Below are positions 1,755-8,875 of a DNA stretch of 64,000 nt, one piece after another. Below the pieces are notes generated by a model. The model saw only the letters and a program-made list of their open reading frames with translations. It searched no databases and was not told the origin of the DNA. The DNA comes from Haloferax sulfurifontis ATCC BAA-897 (GTDB lineage: Archaea; Halobacteriota; Halobacteria; Halobacteriales; Haloferacaceae), in contig NZ_AOLM01000025.1 in the NCBI RefSeq assembly GCF_000337835.1, positions 62,001 through 126,000 of the forward strand. Reading direction: 5' to 3'. The stretch's first letter is position 1; every line of letters starts with the position of its first letter. The position numbers and the translations under genes are program-made.

Positions 1755-3761
1755 ATGTGTGACTTCGCATTCTACCCCTCTCTGTATCACAAGGATTGCT
1801 CTGCTCTTCAGTCTTGGAAGTGTCCCTACCCATCGTTACCAAATCGCTCTTACTGTGTATTTCATACTCTCCCTCCGGTTTTGGATCAGATCTTCCCAGA
1901 GGAAAGTCAGAAAAGAATCGCATATCTGTCAACAATAAACCAAGCCGGTGTCGCAGAACTTGTCTGCACTCACGTTGAGATCAGCCTTCGACTGGATAGT
2001 ATTCTACAGCTTATTGATGACGATTCACCGATCATTATCGCTGCGACGTATATCTCAGACTTGGATATCCGAAACACCAGTCTAGATCATGATCTTCAAA
2101 TAATCGGGTGCCGGATCTCAAAAATCCAGGGTAGTAACGCAGATCTCCACCAGGGACTCACTATACTAGATTCGTCTATTCCCCACCTGACGCTAGAAGA
2201 CTGCACTTTCAATGAGCAATGTAGGTTTACGGGTACTGAATTTGGTGTAGCTAATTTCACAGCGAGTACCTTCCGAAAGACTGCAAACTTCTCTGAACTC
2301 CCTCCAGAGGAAGTTAATATACGAGAAATACAACAAAATACTGCTGAAAACGCGGCAAGGTTCAAATCCTCTGCTATCTTCATGGGGACCTCTTTCGAAG
2401 AACTGGCTATCTTTACTGGAGTTGATTTTTTTGCGGGTGTCTCTTTCTTTGAGGCTGAATTCTTGAATGGGGGTTCGTTTGAACATGTATTTGCTAAAAT
2501 TGGCATACAATTTGATTCAGTAACGTTTGATGGTGGAGTGAGATTCCAATCATCAAATATCGGTGTTGCTGGCTTTCGTAGTGCGGAATTCAACGACCGA
2601 ACTGTTTTCAAATCGGTAACGTTTGGGCGGCGTGATTTTCTCACTCTCCGAGCTGACACCACTCATACTCATGCGGAGGGAATCAACTGTTCTGAGTTAG
2701 CAAAATACAATGAGTCACTTGAATTGGAACTGTTCAAAGAACTCCTTGATGCAGCAGAGGGCTTTGCTGCTGTCTTCACAGATTGCGAAGTTAACGGTCG
2801 GTTTGAAATCGTAGACTGTGTTGCGACTAACAATATTAATGCAATGGAGAGTCATTTCAACCACTTGGAATTAGAACTGGCCCCTTCATATAGAAATATC
2901 ACTTGCGTACTTGATGACTCTGTCATAGAAAAGGGACAATTCAATATTCGACAAAAATGCTACATACAACTATCTGAGTCAGTCTTAGGAAGAGTTGACT
3001 TACAATCAGAGAATGTTGATCACCCCATTGATTACCTGTTCATAGATAACACCACATTTGACGGGTTTGATTTCTCTAAGCACAGACATCTGTTCCGAGC
3101 TAACGACTGGGTTATCGAAGGTGGAATTCTTGATGGCCAACATATTCATTCACCTCATCTAGAGTCCACTTATTCAAAAGCAAAGGAGGGTGCTAAGAAA
3201 CAAGGGAGCGGCTTGGCGGCGACTGAGTTTTTCATCAAGGAATTACGATGTCGCCGAGATCAATACCTGAACGATATCCAATCACATAGCGATTGGCGTT
3301 CAAAACTCAAAGCCGGATATGGGATTGTTACAAATGACATCTTCTACATCACCAGTAGGTATGCTGAGAGTCCAAGTCTTGTTTTCATTTGGTCGGTACT
3401 GACCGTAATTGGATTCGCAGTTTGGTATGGCATGCATCCAGTGGACCTCTCATACCAGGAGACGCTGAATATCTCTTATCACCATATTGAGTTGGTGCTG
3501 TACCGGACTCAATTACCAAGAACTGATCTTGTTCCCGCTTCGCTATTTGTTCCCACTTACAAACTTACTGAGTCTGAAATCAGCATTGGAGGGATTGAAT
3601 ACCTCATTCTTAGCATCCAGTCTTTCACTGCCTTTCTGGTGACTGGAGGCATTGAAAAGTCTGATTCGACCGTTCGATTAGTTTCTTCCATTCAAAGCTT
3701 CTTGGGAACATTCTGGATCGGATTGTTTGTGTCTACTATGGTTCGGAGCTTCCAAAAATAG
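1755..3761 (+). CDS. Pentapeptide-repeat membrane protein with a channel-like C terminus
   Basis: 668 residues, function unknown. The N terminus has a Cys/His cluster (C2, C15, C23, C34, H37, ending CVFH) of a kind often found in front of pentapeptide repeats. Residues about 80-300 contain many F-x-x-x-x/A-x-F repeats, such as FTGTEF, FTASTF and FFEAEF, suggesting a right-handed quadrilateral beta-helix. The C terminus has a transmembrane helix (LVFIWSVLTVIGFAVW), then a second pair separated by IQSFTAFLVTGG. This recalls the pore loop and inner helix of two-TM ion channels, but the GYG selectivity filter is missing. The gene is AT-rich, unlike polC before it, which suggests recent transfer. 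A TATA-like TTAATTATAG lies about 40 bp upstream of the ATG. Confidence 0.6.
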   Translation: MCDFAFYPSLYHKDCSALQSWKCPYPSLPNRSYCVFHTLPPVLDQIFPEESQKRIAYLSTINQAGVAELVCTHVEISLRLDSILQLIDDDSPIIIAATYISDLDIRNTSLDHDLQIIGCRISKIQGSNADLHQGLTILDSSIPHLTLEDCTFNEQCRFTGTEFGVANFTASTFRKTANFSELPPEEVNIREIQQNTAENAARFKSSAIFMGTSFEELAIFTGVDFFAGVSFFEAEFLNGGSFEHVFAKIGIQFDSVTFDGGVRFQSSNIGVAGFRSAEFNDRTVFKSVTFGRRDFLTLRADTTHTHAEGINCSELAKYNESLELELFKELLDAAEGFAAVFTDCEVNGRFEIVDCVATNNINAMESHFNHLELELAPSYRNITCVLDDSVIEKGQFNIRQKCYIQLSESVLGRVDLQSENVDHPIDYLFIDNTTFDGFDFSKHRHLFRANDWVIEGGILDGQHIHSPHLESTYSKAKEGAKKQGSGLAATEFFIKELRCRRDQYLNDIQSHSDWRSKLKAGYGIVTNDIFYITSRYAESPSLVFIWSVLTVIGFAVWYGMHPVDLSYQETLNISYHHIELVLYRTQLPRTDLVPASLFVPTYKLTESEISIGGIEYLILSIQSFTAFLVTGGIEKSDSTVRLVSSIQSFLGTFWIGLFVSTMVRSFQK

Positions 3762-4045
3762 CCTCACAGATTCTATCTGTTGGCCTGGGGATGTGTTCCT
3801 CCACAAAATGTGTCAAAACCCTGTTTCGGCCCGCACAGCTGGGTGTGATGAGAATCACCGTTTGCTCTCGGAATCGTACACCACTAGCCGATTCTGTTCT
3901 GTAGCGACCATATATTGCTTCTCGTGCGCGCGAGGACAGGCAAAGCGCGCCGGCCGTTTCGCGCTCCAAGCAGTCGGCGGAATCGCCGGGTCCCGAACGC
4001 GGGCTGTGTCCATTCAATCGTATCGACTCGAGACGCGTTTGTCGC
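3762..4045. other. Gene-poor spacer left of the transposon
   Basis: No convincing gene. Reading frames of about 100 codons exist on both strands, but neither has a recognisable domain or a clear start signal. Base composition is intermediate between the AT-rich gene to the left and the host. The transposon target site follows directly. Confidence 0.5.
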
Positions 4046-4051
4046 ACTCTC
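4046..4051. repeat. Target-site duplication, left copy
   Basis: ACTCTC lies directly outside the left inverted end of the element. The same six bases follow the right end at 8870-8875. Confidence 0.8.
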
Positions 4052-4085
4052 CACCTATTCGAGATTGGGGGCTGATAACCGTTAG
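4052..4085 (-). repeat. Terminal inverted repeat, left
   Basis: Reads CACCTATTCGAGATTG, seven bases, then ATAACCGTTAG. It is the complement of 8836-8869 at all 27 non-spacer positions, with the same spacer length. Confidence 0.88.
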
Positions 4086-4174
4086 ACCATCACGGTTCTA
4101 CACGTCCGAATTTCGGACAATATTGTCAATCGCCTCTGCTAAGTAACGATGAACCCGGCTGAATTACCAGAATT

Positions 4175-4642
4175 CTAGAAGGAAGTGAGGTCTGTCTGGC
4201 CCTCGTCCACGCCAGTGACGCTTTGCCGTCGCACCCCGCCCGGCCGGACGATCTCCCCGGCCTCCAGGGAGTCCGTGAGCCACGCCGCCCGCTTCCCGAC
4301 GTCTTCGAGGACGTCGTACGGGAAGCACACCTCGGGGTCAAACCGCTGGAAGACGACTCGGAGGGACCGCCGGAACGCGTTCCGAGTCTCGATGTCCAGC
4401 AGCGCGGGCTCTACGAGGATGTACATCTCGTCGTCCTCGTTCCAGTCGCGGCCGCGCGTGGACGTGTAGACGGCGTTCGCCAGTTCCGTCGGCGTCAGGT
4501 CGCCAATCTCCCCATCAGGCTCTTCATCGAGGCTGCCGGGCGTGAGGTAGAGCAGCTGGTCGCAGAGGTCAGCCGCGAAGCGGCGCTCACGGGAATGGAG
4601 TGTCGAACCGTCTGGCGGGCTGAGAACGGCGTACGTCGTCAC
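4175..4642 (-). CDS. Hypothetical protein, transposon cargo
   Basis: 155 residues, soluble and acidic, not recognised. It has no signal peptide or membrane segment. Its middle part (EDDEMYILVEPALLD, then FRRSLRVVFQRFDPE) looks like an alternating alpha/beta domain. It lies close to the left end of the transposon and reads toward that end. It could be an accessory or cargo protein of the element. GC content is host-like, so the element has probably been in haloarchaea for long. Confidence 0.6.
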   Translation of the reverse strand: MTTYAVLSPPDGSTLHSRERRFAADLCDQLLYLTPGSLDEEPDGEIGDLTPTELANAVYTSTRGRDWNEDDEMYILVEPALLDIETRNAFRRSLRVVFQRFDPEVCFPYDVLEDVGKRAAWLTDSLEAGEIVRPGGVRRQSVTGVDEGQTDLTSF

Positions 4643-4698
4643 AGGTCTGCATGAGCTACCCGTCTCGTCTTATTAGTCGCTTGGAAAACGGTCCGGCC

Positions 4699-5367
4699 CT
4701 ACGAAGGGACGTTCCGTGCCGTCCAGGCCAGCACAGCTCCGACAGTAACTCCGACGAGAGAAACCCCGACCAGCGGGGCTATCGATTGGAGAACTACGAG
4801 ACCGCCCAGAACGACCAGCAGCCCGATTAGAACGACCCCACCCAGCGACGTTACCGCGAACACGGGCAGACCCGCGGTGAACCGTTGAGTGACTGTACCG
4901 CCGATGTACGCGCCGCCTGCGAGAAGAACAGCGAGGACGATAATCAACGCTACACCTGGCTGTGCTTCAGAAATGACGAATGCCAAAAGCCCCGCCGCGA
5001 GGTATCCTGTGAGGAGCGCTCCACTGTTCTGAATGAGGTACTTGAACCGGGTCGTGTAGTTCATGGCCTCAACCATCATCACTCCCCCGAGCGCGGTCAA
5101 CAGGATCGGGACGACCCGCAGACTTCGCAGTGTCGGAATCTGAGTGATCAGGTCTACCTGGGTGAACGCAGAACTGAGCCCGCCTAACTGGAGGCCAGAA
5201 ATAGAAACGAAATGGGCACTGAGGAACACCCAGAGTGTCACCTTCCACCGTGGAAACTCTGTCAGGAGGTCAGAAGGCGTGAGAACGTACGTAATCAACC
5301 AACCGACTAAGAACGTAGCTAAACCGAAGACTGTTCCGTACAGGAGCTGTCGCTGGCGAACCCGCAT
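4699..5367 (-). CDS. Polytopic membrane protein, transposon cargo
   Basis: 222 residues with six or seven predicted membrane helices: LLYGTVFGLATFLVGWLIT at the N terminus, then hydrophobic stretches near residues 45, 90, 115, 140, 170 and 198. There are no large soluble domains. It resembles uncharacterised haloarchaeal integral membrane proteins; no transport motif is visible. It lies between the hypothetical gene and the winged-helix gene on the same strand, 65 bp after the latter, so the two may be co-transcribed. Confidence 0.65.
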   Translation of the reverse strand: MRVRQRQLLYGTVFGLATFLVGWLITYVLTPSDLLTEFPRWKVTLWVFLSAHFVSISGLQLGGLSSAFTQVDLITQIPTLRSLRVVPILLTALGGVMMVEAMNYTTRFKYLIQNSGALLTGYLAAGLLAFVISEAQPGVALIIVLAVLLAGGAYIGGTVTQRFTAGLPVFAVTSLGGVVLIGLLVVLGGLVVLQSIAPLVGVSLVGVTVGAVLAWTARNVPS

Positions 5368-5432
5368 TTGTATGTCGCAACGACAGACTACAGTATTATA
5401 ACAGTTCCCGGTAAGGGTTCAGAAGAGATTAG

Positions 5433-5669
5433 CTACTGGTCTTTTGAATCCTGACCCAACCCGTTAGGCAGTTCTTCCAGCTCATAGAGACCGTGCCCGA
5501 GGTTGTTCACGTACTCGGCTGCAACGAGTAGCTGGAGGCGCTGGTGGACATACTGCCGGGAGTAATCCAGTTGTTCAGCCAGCCAACTCGGATTCCGGAC
5601 ACCGTTCTCAAGGGCGCGCAGGATACGCTTGTCCGCGCGGTTCAACTCGTGTGGCACTGTGATAGACAC
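5433..5669 (-). CDS. Small winged-helix DNA-binding protein
   Basis: 78 residues that are almost entirely one winged HTH: helix DKRILRALENG, recognition helix region PSWLAEQLDYSRQYVHQRL, and a wing ending in GLYEL. This is the PhiH1/MarR-like type common in haloarchaeal viruses and mobile elements. It probably acts as a local transcription regulator. It is divergent from the HNH gene, with about 110 bp between the start codons, so it could control both that gene and its own unit. Confidence 0.75.
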   Translation of the reverse strand: MSITVPHELNRADKRILRALENGVRNPSWLAEQLDYSRQYVHQRLQLLVAAEYVNNLGHGLYELEELPNGLGQDSKDQ

Positions 5670-5781
5670 GTCTCTGTCCTCTATGTTGATGTTGTCCTTT
5701 ACGCTTGTATTCTTAACGGTGTAATTGACATCGGACTTTACAACATATAGATTTATAGCGATGGGAACGATTGTGTGGATT

Positions 5782-6234
5782 ATGGCGACGGCCTCAACTA
5801 AATCGATGATTGAACGCCCATTCCCGAAAGTGAAGGATCGCCCTACATCTGATGTCCCAGCAATCGCCAGAGACGGTGAATCTGGAATGTATGAGGTTAT
5901 TGAGTGTCCTGAGTGCGGCTCAGAGGCCTTTGCCTATCTGCAGTTGCGGTATGCTTGCCGCGAGTGCAAAGTTGGCTCAAGAATCCTTCAAAAGGAGGTT
6001 AATTACGGTGGGCGATGGGAGCGCGTTCGAGAATGGATTCTGGAGCGAGATAACGACCAGTGCCAGAGATGTGGGGATTCCTCCGTTGGATTACAAGTAC
6101 ATCACAAAGAGAAACTTGTATGGTTTGAATCAATACAGGAAGCAAACACCCCTGAAAACCTCATCTCGCTGTGTGAAGATTGTCACGGGGAAGTTGAAGA
6201 ACAGCCAGAGATGGCCTGTCTTCCGGTAATGTGA
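5782..6234 (+). CDS. HNH endonuclease, transposon cargo
   Basis: About 150 residues. An N-terminal zinc ribbon (CPECGSEAF, then CRECK) is followed by a canonical HNH domain: WILERDNDQCQRCG, LQVHHKEKLVWF, then NTPENLISLCEDCHGEVE. All metal and catalytic residues are present: both CxxC pairs, the HH pair, the N and the final H. The frame is open further upstream (TTG 5725, ATG 5761). I prefer ATG 5782 because an ATTTATAG TATA box lies about 27 bp before it, the usual leaderless geometry. It could be a homing, restriction or anti-phage nuclease; the sequence does not decide. Confidence 0.8.
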   Translation: MATASTKSMIERPFPKVKDRPTSDVPAIARDGESGMYEVIECPECGSEAFAYLQLRYACRECKVGSRILQKEVNYGGRWERVREWILERDNDQCQRCGDSSVGLQVHHKEKLVWFESIQEANTPENLISLCEDCHGEVEEQPEMACLPVM

Positions 6235-6291
6235 GTATAATGACGTCCGAACACACGCCGAGTTAGAAAGCTCAACCAATTTTAACAAACC

Positions 6292-6462
6292 ATGGTGGAT
6301 CGGAAAATACTCAAAAGAGCGTTAGAAGCAGAGGAAACGGAACAGACGGAGTGTCCTTTTTGTGGTGAGGTAATTCCAGCGTTTGAACTGAAGACTGACC
6401 ATGCGCACCCAAGAGAGCAATCCGAATTAATCTTGACCCTTCTGAAGGAGACAGAGGAATGA
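6292..6462 (+). CDS. Tiny CxxC zinc protein, HNH-like fragment
   Basis: 56 codons starting at ATG 6292. The sequence contains TECPFCGEVIPAFELKTD followed by HAHP. A CxxC knuckle followed about 12 residues later by DHxHP is the front half of many HNH/restriction nuclease folds, but the second CxxC/H half is absent. It could be a functional small zinc protein or the remnant of a second HNH gene. It follows the HNH gene by 57 bp on the same strand, and its codon use is AT-richer than the host. Confidence 0.55.
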   Translation: MVDRKILKRALEAEETEQTECPFCGEVIPAFELKTDHAHPREQSELILTLLKETEE

Positions 6463-6480
6463 TATTCTGGGGCAGGAGAC

Positions 6481-6487
6481 TTATATA
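6481..6487 (+). promoter_or_regulatory. TATA box of the transposase gene
   Basis: TTATATA centred about 30 bp before GTG 6514. This is the spacing for a leaderless haloarchaeal transcript and supports the GTG as the transposase start. Confidence 0.55.
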
Positions 6488-6513
6488 CTAACTTGAACTA
6501 AAGCCGGCCAGAC

Positions 6514-8679
6514 GTGGTCCAACGAACGCTGTCCTCCTATCAATCGCCCTCCCAATCCTCTTCCTGCGGTCCATCCCCTCCCTCACCTCAGGGTCCGACT
6601 CACTATTTCTCACCGGGCCGTGAACTGACTGAGAAAGACGAATTCCGGCACTTAGTGTATCAGACGTACAAAGAGACCTATCAAGACGAAGGACATCATC
6701 CCCACCCAATTTTCACGAAGCTTCGGATCAACCGTCCGAAGCACGTGGCAATGCAGATCTACGCCGGGTTGATGAACGGTCACTCTCTCACCGAGTGCGT
6801 CGCCACTGCTGGTATCGATCTCGCCCGATTCGAAGACAGGAAATGGAGTGACCACCCCCGGATTCACAGCTTCGAGGCCCTCGTACGCTCGTATATCTGG
6901 GGGATGCTCCGCGGCATCGAGTACCGGAGTCACATTGTCTCCGAGCTCTCCGACCGGCCGAACACCCGTCGGGAACTCGGCTACGGAACCTTCAACGGGA
7001 CGCGTCGGTGTCCACACCAGACGAACTTTAACGAGGCATGGAACGACCGCTTTGGTCCCGATCTCCGCGCATTCGTCACCGAAGTCGTGGCGTACGTACG
7101 CGAATGGGCCTACGACAACAACCGCCTCATCGAGACAACCGAGCTCCTGGTGCCCGACGAGCGCGACGAGACGCAGGAACTCACGAAGGACCAGATCCGG
7201 CGCATCGTCAACGAGATGGTCGGCTACATCACGCCGAACTACTCGTTCAACCGGGAAGGCGGCGTTTCGCACGACAAGAACGTCTTCTTCAAACTCCTCG
7301 CCCACTGCGCGCTCACCAGCTCCAGCGTCCACGGGGGAGGAGACACCTTCGAATGGCAGCAAATCGATGACGACGATCCGCCACACGGTCGGACTGTCCT
7401 CGACCTCGTGAAGAGCCTGTCCGCCGGTGAGATGCTCTCCATGTACGCCGACGCTATCGACGGTGTCGTGGAGGCCCTGGACAAGCAGGTCGGTCTCTAC
7501 GACTCGCCTGTCCCGCTCGCTATCGACACGACGACCATCGAATCCGATGCGAAGTGGAAGCGCGTCACGATCCCTTCCATCGCTGATCCCGAGTACCACG
7601 GGTGGAGCGACCGAAAGAAGAAGGACACGTACGCGTACATCGAAGAAGAAGGAATCGAGTGTCTTGTCGGCGAAGACCCCGAGAAGATCCGAAAGGCCAG
7701 ATTCCACGACGACGAGAAGCGGGAGGCGGCCGAACGAATCAACGACGTGGTTCGGTACGTCCACGGGACGAAGAGCGGTGACGAGTTCAAGTACGCGTGG
7801 GAGTTCGGTGCCGCCGCTATCGCGCACCCTTCGTGCCCGCTGATCTACGCGATGGAGCCGCTCGAACGAAAGGACGAGCTGGAGGATCACGTCGAACGCT
7901 TCATCGAGCGCGGGCAGGAACTCGTCACTGTCTCGGAAGTCTACATGGACTCGGCGTACTCGCAGGTCGCCGTCCAGCAACTCTTCCACTACGGGAACGC
8001 CTTCCGCACGGAAGACCAGTTCAACATCCCGTACGTGATGAACATCCGCGAAGAGGACAGCGTCAAGAAGGCGGTCCTCCAGGAGAAGCCCGGTCGCGGG
8101 GACATCACCACGCGGATGGACGAGAGTGAAGGCGACATCTCGGTGGTGAAGAACTACCGCCAGCACAGTCAGGAACACGGCTACGGCGCGACTACGCTGG
8201 TCGGCCTCCCGAAGCGGGACTACGAGAACGGCGGAGTCGTGGACGTCAAGGACCCGGTGACCGACCGAGTCGCCTTTTCGACGAGTCGGACGGACATCGA
8301 TGCCGAGAACGCCATTGAGTTGCTCCGTGGACCCGATTCCGAGTCGTTTAGCGACCCGGTTCGGAGGCGGAAGGCGAAGCACGAGCGCGGCTACACGAAT
8401 CGGTGGCTGATTGAGATCGGCTTCGAGAAGACGAAGGACTTCCTCGCGTTCACGAAGAGCGGTCACGGCGGTGTGCGGCTGTTCTACGTCCTCTACGCGT
8501 CCCTTCTGTTCGACGTGTGGATGACTGTGGACCGCGCCATCAAACACGAGGAGTACGAGCTGGGCTTCGATGTTGAGACCTACGACGAGGATGACTCGGT
8601 CGTGTACGCGACCTCGCCGAGAATCTCGGCTGATGTTCTCTCCACGATTGTGGCGAACTACCTGCGGCCGGTGACCTAA
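6514..8679 (+). CDS. DDE transposase, IS4 superfamily
   Basis: 721 residues. The DDE triad is visible: D338 in PLAIDTTTIES, D479 in VYMDSAYSQ and E634 in RWLIEIGFEK. Around the Glu, Y627, R630, E634 and K641 match the Y-(2)-R-(3)-E-(6)-K signature that defines the IS4 superfamily. It is longer than typical haloarchaeal IS4 enzymes (about 400 residues). The extra length is an N-terminal domain of some 300 residues plus an insertion between the two Asp residues. It starts at GTG; the first 30 residues are low-complexity Ser/Pro and may be untranslated. The stop is 156 bp from the right inverted end. The gene appears intact. Confidence 0.88.
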   Translation: MVQRTLSSYQSPSQSSSCGPSPPSPQGPTHYFSPGRELTEKDEFRHLVYQTYKETYQDEGHHPHPIFTKLRINRPKHVAMQIYAGLMNGHSLTECVATAGIDLARFEDRKWSDHPRIHSFEALVRSYIWGMLRGIEYRSHIVSELSDRPNTRRELGYGTFNGTRRCPHQTNFNEAWNDRFGPDLRAFVTEVVAYVREWAYDNNRLIETTELLVPDERDETQELTKDQIRRIVNEMVGYITPNYSFNREGGVSHDKNVFFKLLAHCALTSSSVHGGGDTFEWQQIDDDDPPHGRTVLDLVKSLSAGEMLSMYADAIDGVVEALDKQVGLYDSPVPLAIDTTTIESDAKWKRVTIPSIADPEYHGWSDRKKKDTYAYIEEEGIECLVGEDPEKIRKARFHDDEKREAAERINDVVRYVHGTKSGDEFKYAWEFGAAAIAHPSCPLIYAMEPLERKDELEDHVERFIERGQELVTVSEVYMDSAYSQVAVQQLFHYGNAFRTEDQFNIPYVMNIREEDSVKKAVLQEKPGRGDITTRMDESEGDISVVKNYRQHSQEHGYGATTLVGLPKRDYENGGVVDVKDPVTDRVAFSTSRTDIDAENAIELLRGPDSESFSDPVRRRKAKHERGYTNRWLIEIGFEKTKDFLAFTKSGHGGVRLFYVLYASLLFDVWMTVDRAIKHEEYELGFDVETYDEDDSVVYATSPRISADVLSTIVANYLRPVT

Positions 8680-8835
8680 GCCGAAACGTAGCTCTCCCCC
8701 GTCCGCGACTACTGAGTGACATCTCTTTCTCTCGCTCGTTGTTTTCTTCGGAACGTCTAGTGCAACCATTGATTTCGTGAGAAGTCGATTTTCTGACCGA
8801 GTAGCATCGTTTATTTCACCACTTGATGCCGCTTT

Positions 8836-8869
8836 CTAACGGTTATATTTCGTCAATCTCGAATAGGTG
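8836..8869 (+). repeat. Terminal inverted repeat, right
   Basis: CTAACGGTTAT, seven bases, CAATCTCGAATAGGTG. It is the partner of 4052-4085. Confidence 0.88.
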
Positions 8870-8875
8870 ACTCTC
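8870..8875. repeat. Target-site duplication, right copy
   Basis: ACTCTC directly after the right inverted end, identical to 4046-4051. Removing the element and one copy restores a continuous sequence. Confidence 0.8.

Follow-up and report, generated by a model that had tools for sequence, protein, structure and literature searches.

A probable cargo transposon with two core genes in Haloferax sulfurifontis and its haloarchaeal relatives

We analysed a stretch of 64,000 nucleotides from Haloferax sulfurifontis ATCC BAA-897 (contig NZ_AOLM01000025.1, positions 62,001 to 126,000; hereafter the window), in which positions 4052-8869 probably form one complete, single-unit cargo transposon. It belongs to a haloarchaeal family whose two core genes are a transposase gene and a small gene, the latter 155 codons long in the window. 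As far as open-access full text shows, this family was previously unrecognised; no haloarchaeal DDE transposons that combine cargo with a conserved second gene were found described there. That present annotation misses it follows from the label 'hypothetical protein' given to a relative of the transposase on a Natronococcus plasmid.

Boundaries and ends of the element

The element, its ends, its two core genes and the flanking duplications are placed as follows.

4046-4051: left copy of the target duplication, ACTCTC, read base by base
4052-8869: probable complete transposon, 4,818 bp, with inverted ends between the ACTCTC duplications
4052-4086, forward strand: left terminal inverted repeat, CACCTATTCGAGATTG, a 7-bp spacer and ATAACCGTTAGA
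4175-4642, reverse strand: second core gene, 155 aa, degenerate DUF6884-like, with a homologue at the same place in nine elements
4178-4198, reverse strand: codons of the C-terminal QTDLTSF, a tail resembling a PCNA-interacting protein (PIP) box, in which Q149, L152, S154 and F155 are invariant
6514-8679, forward strand: transposase, 721 aa, with D338, D479 and E634, and Y627-x2-R630-x3-E634-x6-K641
8835-8869, reverse strand: right terminal inverted repeat, found by a repeat finder and by base-by-base comparison
8870-8875: right copy of the target duplication, ACTCTC, where relatives have 6-7 nt and no element

The inverted ends, detected in these two independent ways, are 35 bp long and consist, from the outside inwards, of 16 identical, 7 unlike and 12 identical positions, matching at 28/28 positions outside the spacer. 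The initial annotation had proposed that these coordinates hold a complete transposon with cargo and a 6-bp target duplication, and both the ends and the ACTCTC directly outside each of them were borne out, together with empty-site alleles in relatives (see below); its end layout of 11 + 7 + 16 with 27 of 27 matches was slightly miscounted and should read 12 + 7 + 16. Within the genome of the window's host, this 16-bp end sequence is present in two places only, both of them ends of the element, so that single ends lying elsewhere without a transposase, which would have spoken for another origin, are absent there. The transposase open reading frame (ORF) occurs once, the element being single-copy in this genome. 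End matches with one mismatch were seen in 5/196 genomes of relatives, which is chance level, and were dropped. The ends cannot be due to chance, since they match each other on both sides and recur in eight other complete elements.

In DDE/YREK transposases three acidic residues cut and join the element ends. The full DDE and YREK motifs that had been reported for the 721-residue protein could be located at the residues given above, and the Y(2)R(3)E(6)K motif is present in all six intact transposases of the family. Family transposases are 670-775 aa long, with 141-144 residues between the first and second D and 130-155 between the second D and the E.

Family members and empty sites

Among 392 genomes from the order, a search returned a second complete copy and seven further complete elements. 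The second copy lies at an unrelated site in G362, a genome of another haloarchaeal family; it is 94.4% identical over 4,819 bp, has two perfect ends and is flanked by the 7-bp duplication GGCGCAA. This copy, with its different duplication, is a second, independent insertion, and the two copies show that the element moved between haloarchaeal families as a whole unit.

The seven further elements are found in G428, G408, G337, G410, G357 and G296 (two, G296a and G296b), with transposases ~38-54% identical to that of the window. The ends of the other complete elements were placed by end-sequence resemblance and the flanks were inspected only afterwards; an exact duplication of 6-7 bp is nevertheless present in 9/9 complete elements (6 bp in seven, 7 bp in two), those of the seven further elements being GCGCCGG, TTCTCC, GTCTGG, TCTTTA, TTGTTA, CGCTAT and ACCTCA. 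Insertion thus creates duplications of 6-7 bp and shows no target specificity. Elements of the family are 4.8 to 8.9 kb long and occur in one or two copies per genome. The 16 + 7 + 12 layout of the ends is common to the window, G362, G408 and G428, a more distant branch has CAGCTAATSGAGAWAC ends, and the terminal bases across the family are CACC/TACC/CAGC.

Deleted derivatives were also found. G345 and G400 share one insertion of 3.8-3.9 kb with the duplication GAACGA and a gutted transposase, and in a remnant of 2.5 kb in G021 (reverse complement of L151, 9019-11525) the two ends are still present, as are the small core gene and two genes of cargo. The latter (145 and 211 aa) look by eye like a toxin-antitoxin pair, and the flanking duplication of this remnant has decayed. 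On the plasmid of Natronococcus sp. CG52 (G412), positions 8888-10338 of L113 hold a deleted copy in which the C-terminal half of the transposase is immediately preceded by an end-like sequence, and no matching flanking duplication was found there. No complete transposase-only member of the family was found among the genomes searched, and close relatives of the transposase or of the small protein were found neither in viral contigs nor in phage records.

The target sites of the window and G362 insertions, the two examined, are empty in relatives. When the window flanks are joined over one ACTCTC, as an empty site had been expected to look, they align without interruption to four relatives of the genus Haloferax (G293, G007, G001 and G002), of which G293 is classed as the same species as the window's host; in all four, TTGTCGC and AATTCTATATCGCG are separated by 6-7 nt and the element is lacking. 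At the G362 site, the left-flank match in genus relatives (G322, G284 and others) continues through the junction, and the block matching the right flank lies ~120-130 bp further on, as against 4.8 kb in G362.

Core genes and cargo

All nine complete elements follow one plan, in which the transposase gene lies at the right end, the small gene lies at the left, and each points outwards. The transposase stop codon lies ~190-205 bp from the right end (190 bp in the window) and that of the small gene ~110-130 bp from the left end (123 bp in the window). The small gene adjoins the transposase or transposase remnants in 13 of the contexts that were read, and its protein identity follows that of the transposase, with 69% in G408 and ~36-38% in the distant branch. 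Since the 155-aa gene keeps its place and orientation in 9/9 elements while the intervening genes differ, we assign it to the core and the remainder to the cargo, so that everything between the two core genes is, on this comparison, replaceable. The five cargo genes of the initial annotation are thus five ORFs besides the transposase, one of which (4175-4642) is the conserved core gene. Between the window and G362, nonsynonymous (dN) and synonymous (dS) divergence are 0.012 and 0.276 in the transposase and 0.042 and 0.208 in the small protein; in each core gene dN is thus far smaller than dS, and both have therefore been under purifying selection to work.

The cargo of the window comprises four genes, listed here together with a mosaic block.

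4699-5367, reverse strand: 222-aa protein, a membrane protein by its hydrophobic make-up, of no known family
5331-6901: mosaic block of recently exchanged cargo, 1.5% divergent from G362 against 7.6% outside
5433-5669, reverse strand: 78-aa winged-helix (MarR-like) regulator (Pfam MarR_2, E 4.9e-7)
5725-6234, forward strand: zinc-ribbon and HNH endonuclease-like protein, first in-frame ATG at 5782
6292-6462, forward strand: 56-aa protein with a CxxC pair, 98% identical in G362

The mosaic block is supported by a log-likelihood gain of 45.6, against 8.4 for the best of 30 shuffles. Relative to G362, dS lies at 0.02-0.06 for the genes of the winged-helix, HNH and 56-aa proteins, compared with 0.21-0.30 in the small core gene, the membrane protein gene (dN 0.025, dS 0.30) and the transposase. 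Because both the divergence of the block and its dS are far below those of the remainder of the element, the central cargo was exchanged later, by recombination.

Cargo differs across the family. The window and G362 carry the HNH protein, the winged-helix regulator and the membrane protein; G408 carries an HNH protein with other genes; G410 has an ABC transporter with proteins bearing a twin-arginine translocation (Tat) signal, G296b a trypsin-like protein, and G337, G357 and G296a other Tat-signal proteins. In the distant branch (L115 of G410, 2036-5756; L114 of G337, 5613-7754; the reverse complement of L116 of G357, 3646-5845; and L117-L118 of G296), many of the cargo genes encode secreted Tat-signal proteins and adjoin genes for membrane proteins, for an ABC exporter or for a trypsin-like protein, a composition compatible with modules of antagonism or immunity. 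The HNH protein of the window matches Pfam HNH (E 3.3e-7) and a PHROG HNH profile (E 5.5e-17). Its PADLOC matches are weak and confined to the HNH part, for which reason we claim no defence system. A provirus was considered and rejected, there being no phage-type gene among the ORFs of the element and no phage matches.

The small protein and its C-terminal tail

The small protein has no direct Pfam match, and a profile built from it finds larger haloarchaeal proteins with DUF6884 (PF21818). In hhalign, it matches four such proteins with a probability of 98.9% (E 3.9e-17), a comparison that is not wholly independent, the four having been recruited with the same profile, although their DUF6884 assignment is independent. 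The authors of Pfam describe DUF6884 as a YaaA-like, DNA-associated and DNA-damage-associated domain with CxxxK and LSAxxG motifs (PMC11701544). The domain homology is shared, but in the small protein CxxxK is lost and LSAxxG eroded, being kept in part, and the motifs are absent or eroded in all homologues.

The C-terminal peptide of the small protein is GVDEGQTDLTSF. A C-terminal Q-x-x-L-x-S-F is found in 14/15 homologues of the small protein, and among 363 gene-like ORFs in the fetched DNA it ends only five, all of them the small protein or DUF6884 relatives. The tail follows the QxxhxxaA-type motif, which is often C-terminal, reduced to a single aromatic residue, and so looks like a PIP-box, or PCNA-binding, sequence. 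An archaeal Fen1 peptide whose structure in complex with PCNA has been solved reads KTTQSTLDSFFK, as given together with the PIP definition (PMC4929162). The host's own Fen1 ends in QTGLDRWT, which is similarly reduced, and the large subunit of its DNA polymerase D, at window position 1700, ends in QSGIADFM. Larger haloarchaeal DUF6884 proteins also end in QxxLxxF or in something close to it; three of ~305 aa, in L136, L137 and L138, have the ends DQAALDSF, GQSTLSSF and QLTFNDF, and are possible unrecognised PCNA partners.

Proposed mechanism and alternatives

In the mechanism that we propose, the transposase would bind the two-part ends, and its DDE chemistry would cut and join them with 6-7-bp staggered joining, probably in cut-and-paste mode as in other YREK transposases. 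With its YaaA-like fold on DNA and its C-terminal PIP box on PCNA, the small protein may steer the transposition complex to DNA that is being replicated or has just been repaired, in the way that TnsE of Tn7 uses the beta clamp (PMC5371812); we see the chances of this part, binding and targeting together, as about evenly balanced. Binding of sliding clamps has been described for transposases of the IS1634 family, among them a Methanosarcina enzyme that has a PCNA motif (PMC4549789).

Several observations weigh against this proposal. The tail has one terminal aromatic residue where a canonical PIP box has two, and in the homologue from G034 the last residue is L. Larger DUF6884 proteins share the tail without being encoded near this transposase, and PIP boxes are usually a sign of DNA repair proteins; the tail may therefore have been inherited rather than evolved for transposition. 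The transposase is broken in 3/9 elements (an internal stop in G408, truncations in G296a and G296b), and single-sequence structure models are uninterpretable, with predicted local distance difference test (pLDDT) scores of 33 for the small protein and 32 for the transposase.

In another reading, possible if doubtful in our view, the small protein regulates or inhibits the transposase, or helps in repair by sealing the insertion, with no choice of target and with the PCNA tail serving gap repair. Many transposons have regulators beside the transposase, DUF6884 is tied to DNA damage (PMC11701544), PIP boxes are typical of repair proteins (PMC4929162), and the lack of target preference in the duplications fits unguided insertion. 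Nothing specific contradicts such a role, the data being equal for repair help and target guidance, but the loss of CxxxK and LSAxxG argues against a retained enzyme activity. The element could also be a plain insertion sequence of the ISH3/IS4 kind with captured neighbours, its left-end gene being an old and widespread piece of ordinary cargo. There is one transposase gene, with DDE and YREK as in IS4, the distant haloarchaeal transposases of 530-620 aa match the ISH3 model, and IS231 elements with passengers are known (PMC2266710). This is rendered unlikely by a left-end gene that holds its place and orientation in 9/9 elements while all else between the ends differs, by a protein that tracks the transposase, and by the lack of a complete transposase-only member among the genomes searched. 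Unrelated inverted repeats around a gene island, as a relic or an assembly artefact, might be suspected from the single copy in the window's genome and from the very variable intergenic region; a second complete copy with its own duplication in G362, on which we rejected this reading, the other insertions with exact duplications and the empty sites leave it next to no probability.

With this transposon, the movement of genes between haloarchaeal families has a defined vehicle. If its PIP tail works, replication-coupled transposition could be tested in Haloferax, which is amenable to genetics and whose PCNA structure has been solved.

Genomic surroundings

A 668-aa pentapeptide-repeat protein is encoded at window positions 1755-3761, between the polymerase D gene and the transposon, and in genus relatives this intergenic space is filled by other, unrelated DNA. 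The frame of the polymerase D large subunit (63-1700) starts in an intein-like stretch, with a homing-endonuclease-like N-terminus before the polymerase C-terminus. In most relatives of the genus, the 3' end of the polymerase gene (1668-1698 in the window, codons of the PIP tail) is repeated once or twice downstream; the repeats (L085-L093 and L096) are mostly ~80-170 bp apart, and none is present in the window. They could represent attachment-site duplication at an integration hotspot.

Comparison with known systems

The initial annotation had placed the transposase in the IS4 superfamily, which is right for the catalytic motifs but not for the duplication length, the D-D spacing or the end sequence. 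The Y(2)R(3)E(6)K motif of the IS4 family is present, whereas D1-D2 distances of 141-144 fall outside the published D(60-110)D(100-150)E definition, and duplications of 6-7 bp differ from the roughly one helix turn, 7-13 bp, of that family (PMC2266710), touching only its lower edge, as represented by ISPepr1. Transporter insertion sequences of the IS231 type are similar in having a DDE/YREK transposase, inverted ends, passengers between the left end and the transposase, and sizes up to 5.4 kb, but they make 10-12-bp duplications and have CAT ends (PMC2266710), compared with 6-7 bp and CAC/TAC/CAG here, and they lack the conserved second core gene of the present family. ISH3 elements are archaeal, as are those described here, and their NCBIfam model is the best match to the transposase C-terminus, yet at 41.1 bits it is far below the cut-off of 225; they measure 1.2-1.5 kb, with CRGT ends, duplications of 4-5 bp and a usually incomplete YREK (PMC2266710), as opposed to CACC/TACC/CAGC and 6-7 bp. 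IS1634 elements have long spacers, are common in archaea and make duplications of 5-6 bp, next to 6-7 bp in the present family, but the R of YREK is mostly absent from them (PMC2266710), whereas here it is present in all intact transposases; one archaeal member has a PCNA-binding motif inside its transposase (PMC4549789), while in the present family the PIP-like box is on a separate protein. The IS1634 model gave no match to the transposase at E 0.5.

Because spacing, duplications, ends, model scores and the R of YREK do not fit, we file the family in none of IS4, ISH3 and IS1634. By its sequence features it works like a cargo-bearing IS4-type element, set apart by the published definitions of these three. 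The nearest wider group appears to be the distant haloarchaeal transposases of 530-620 aa, which are common in these genomes and match ISH3 better, though still below the cut-off; a crude scan for inverted repeats with duplications delimited no ends for them. DUF6884 proteins near such transposases in G097 and G125 were judged unrelated, being 13 kb away and in a different orientation.

Tn7 duplicates 5 bp of its target. Its TnsABC machinery has no counterpart here, with no TnsA, TnsB, TnsC or TnsD ORF in any element and one DDE transposase instead. Tn7 is, like the present elements, a cargo transposon, and its accessory protein TnsE has a sliding-clamp motif (PMC5371812), to which the PIP-like tail of the small protein, itself unrelated to TnsE, would correspond. 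This archaeal family of cargo transposons may, with a likelihood that we put a little below even, have evolved a separate replication-targeting factor independently of Tn7, in which a DUF6884/YaaA fold of the DNA-repair type steers a DDE transposase to PCNA-loaded DNA.

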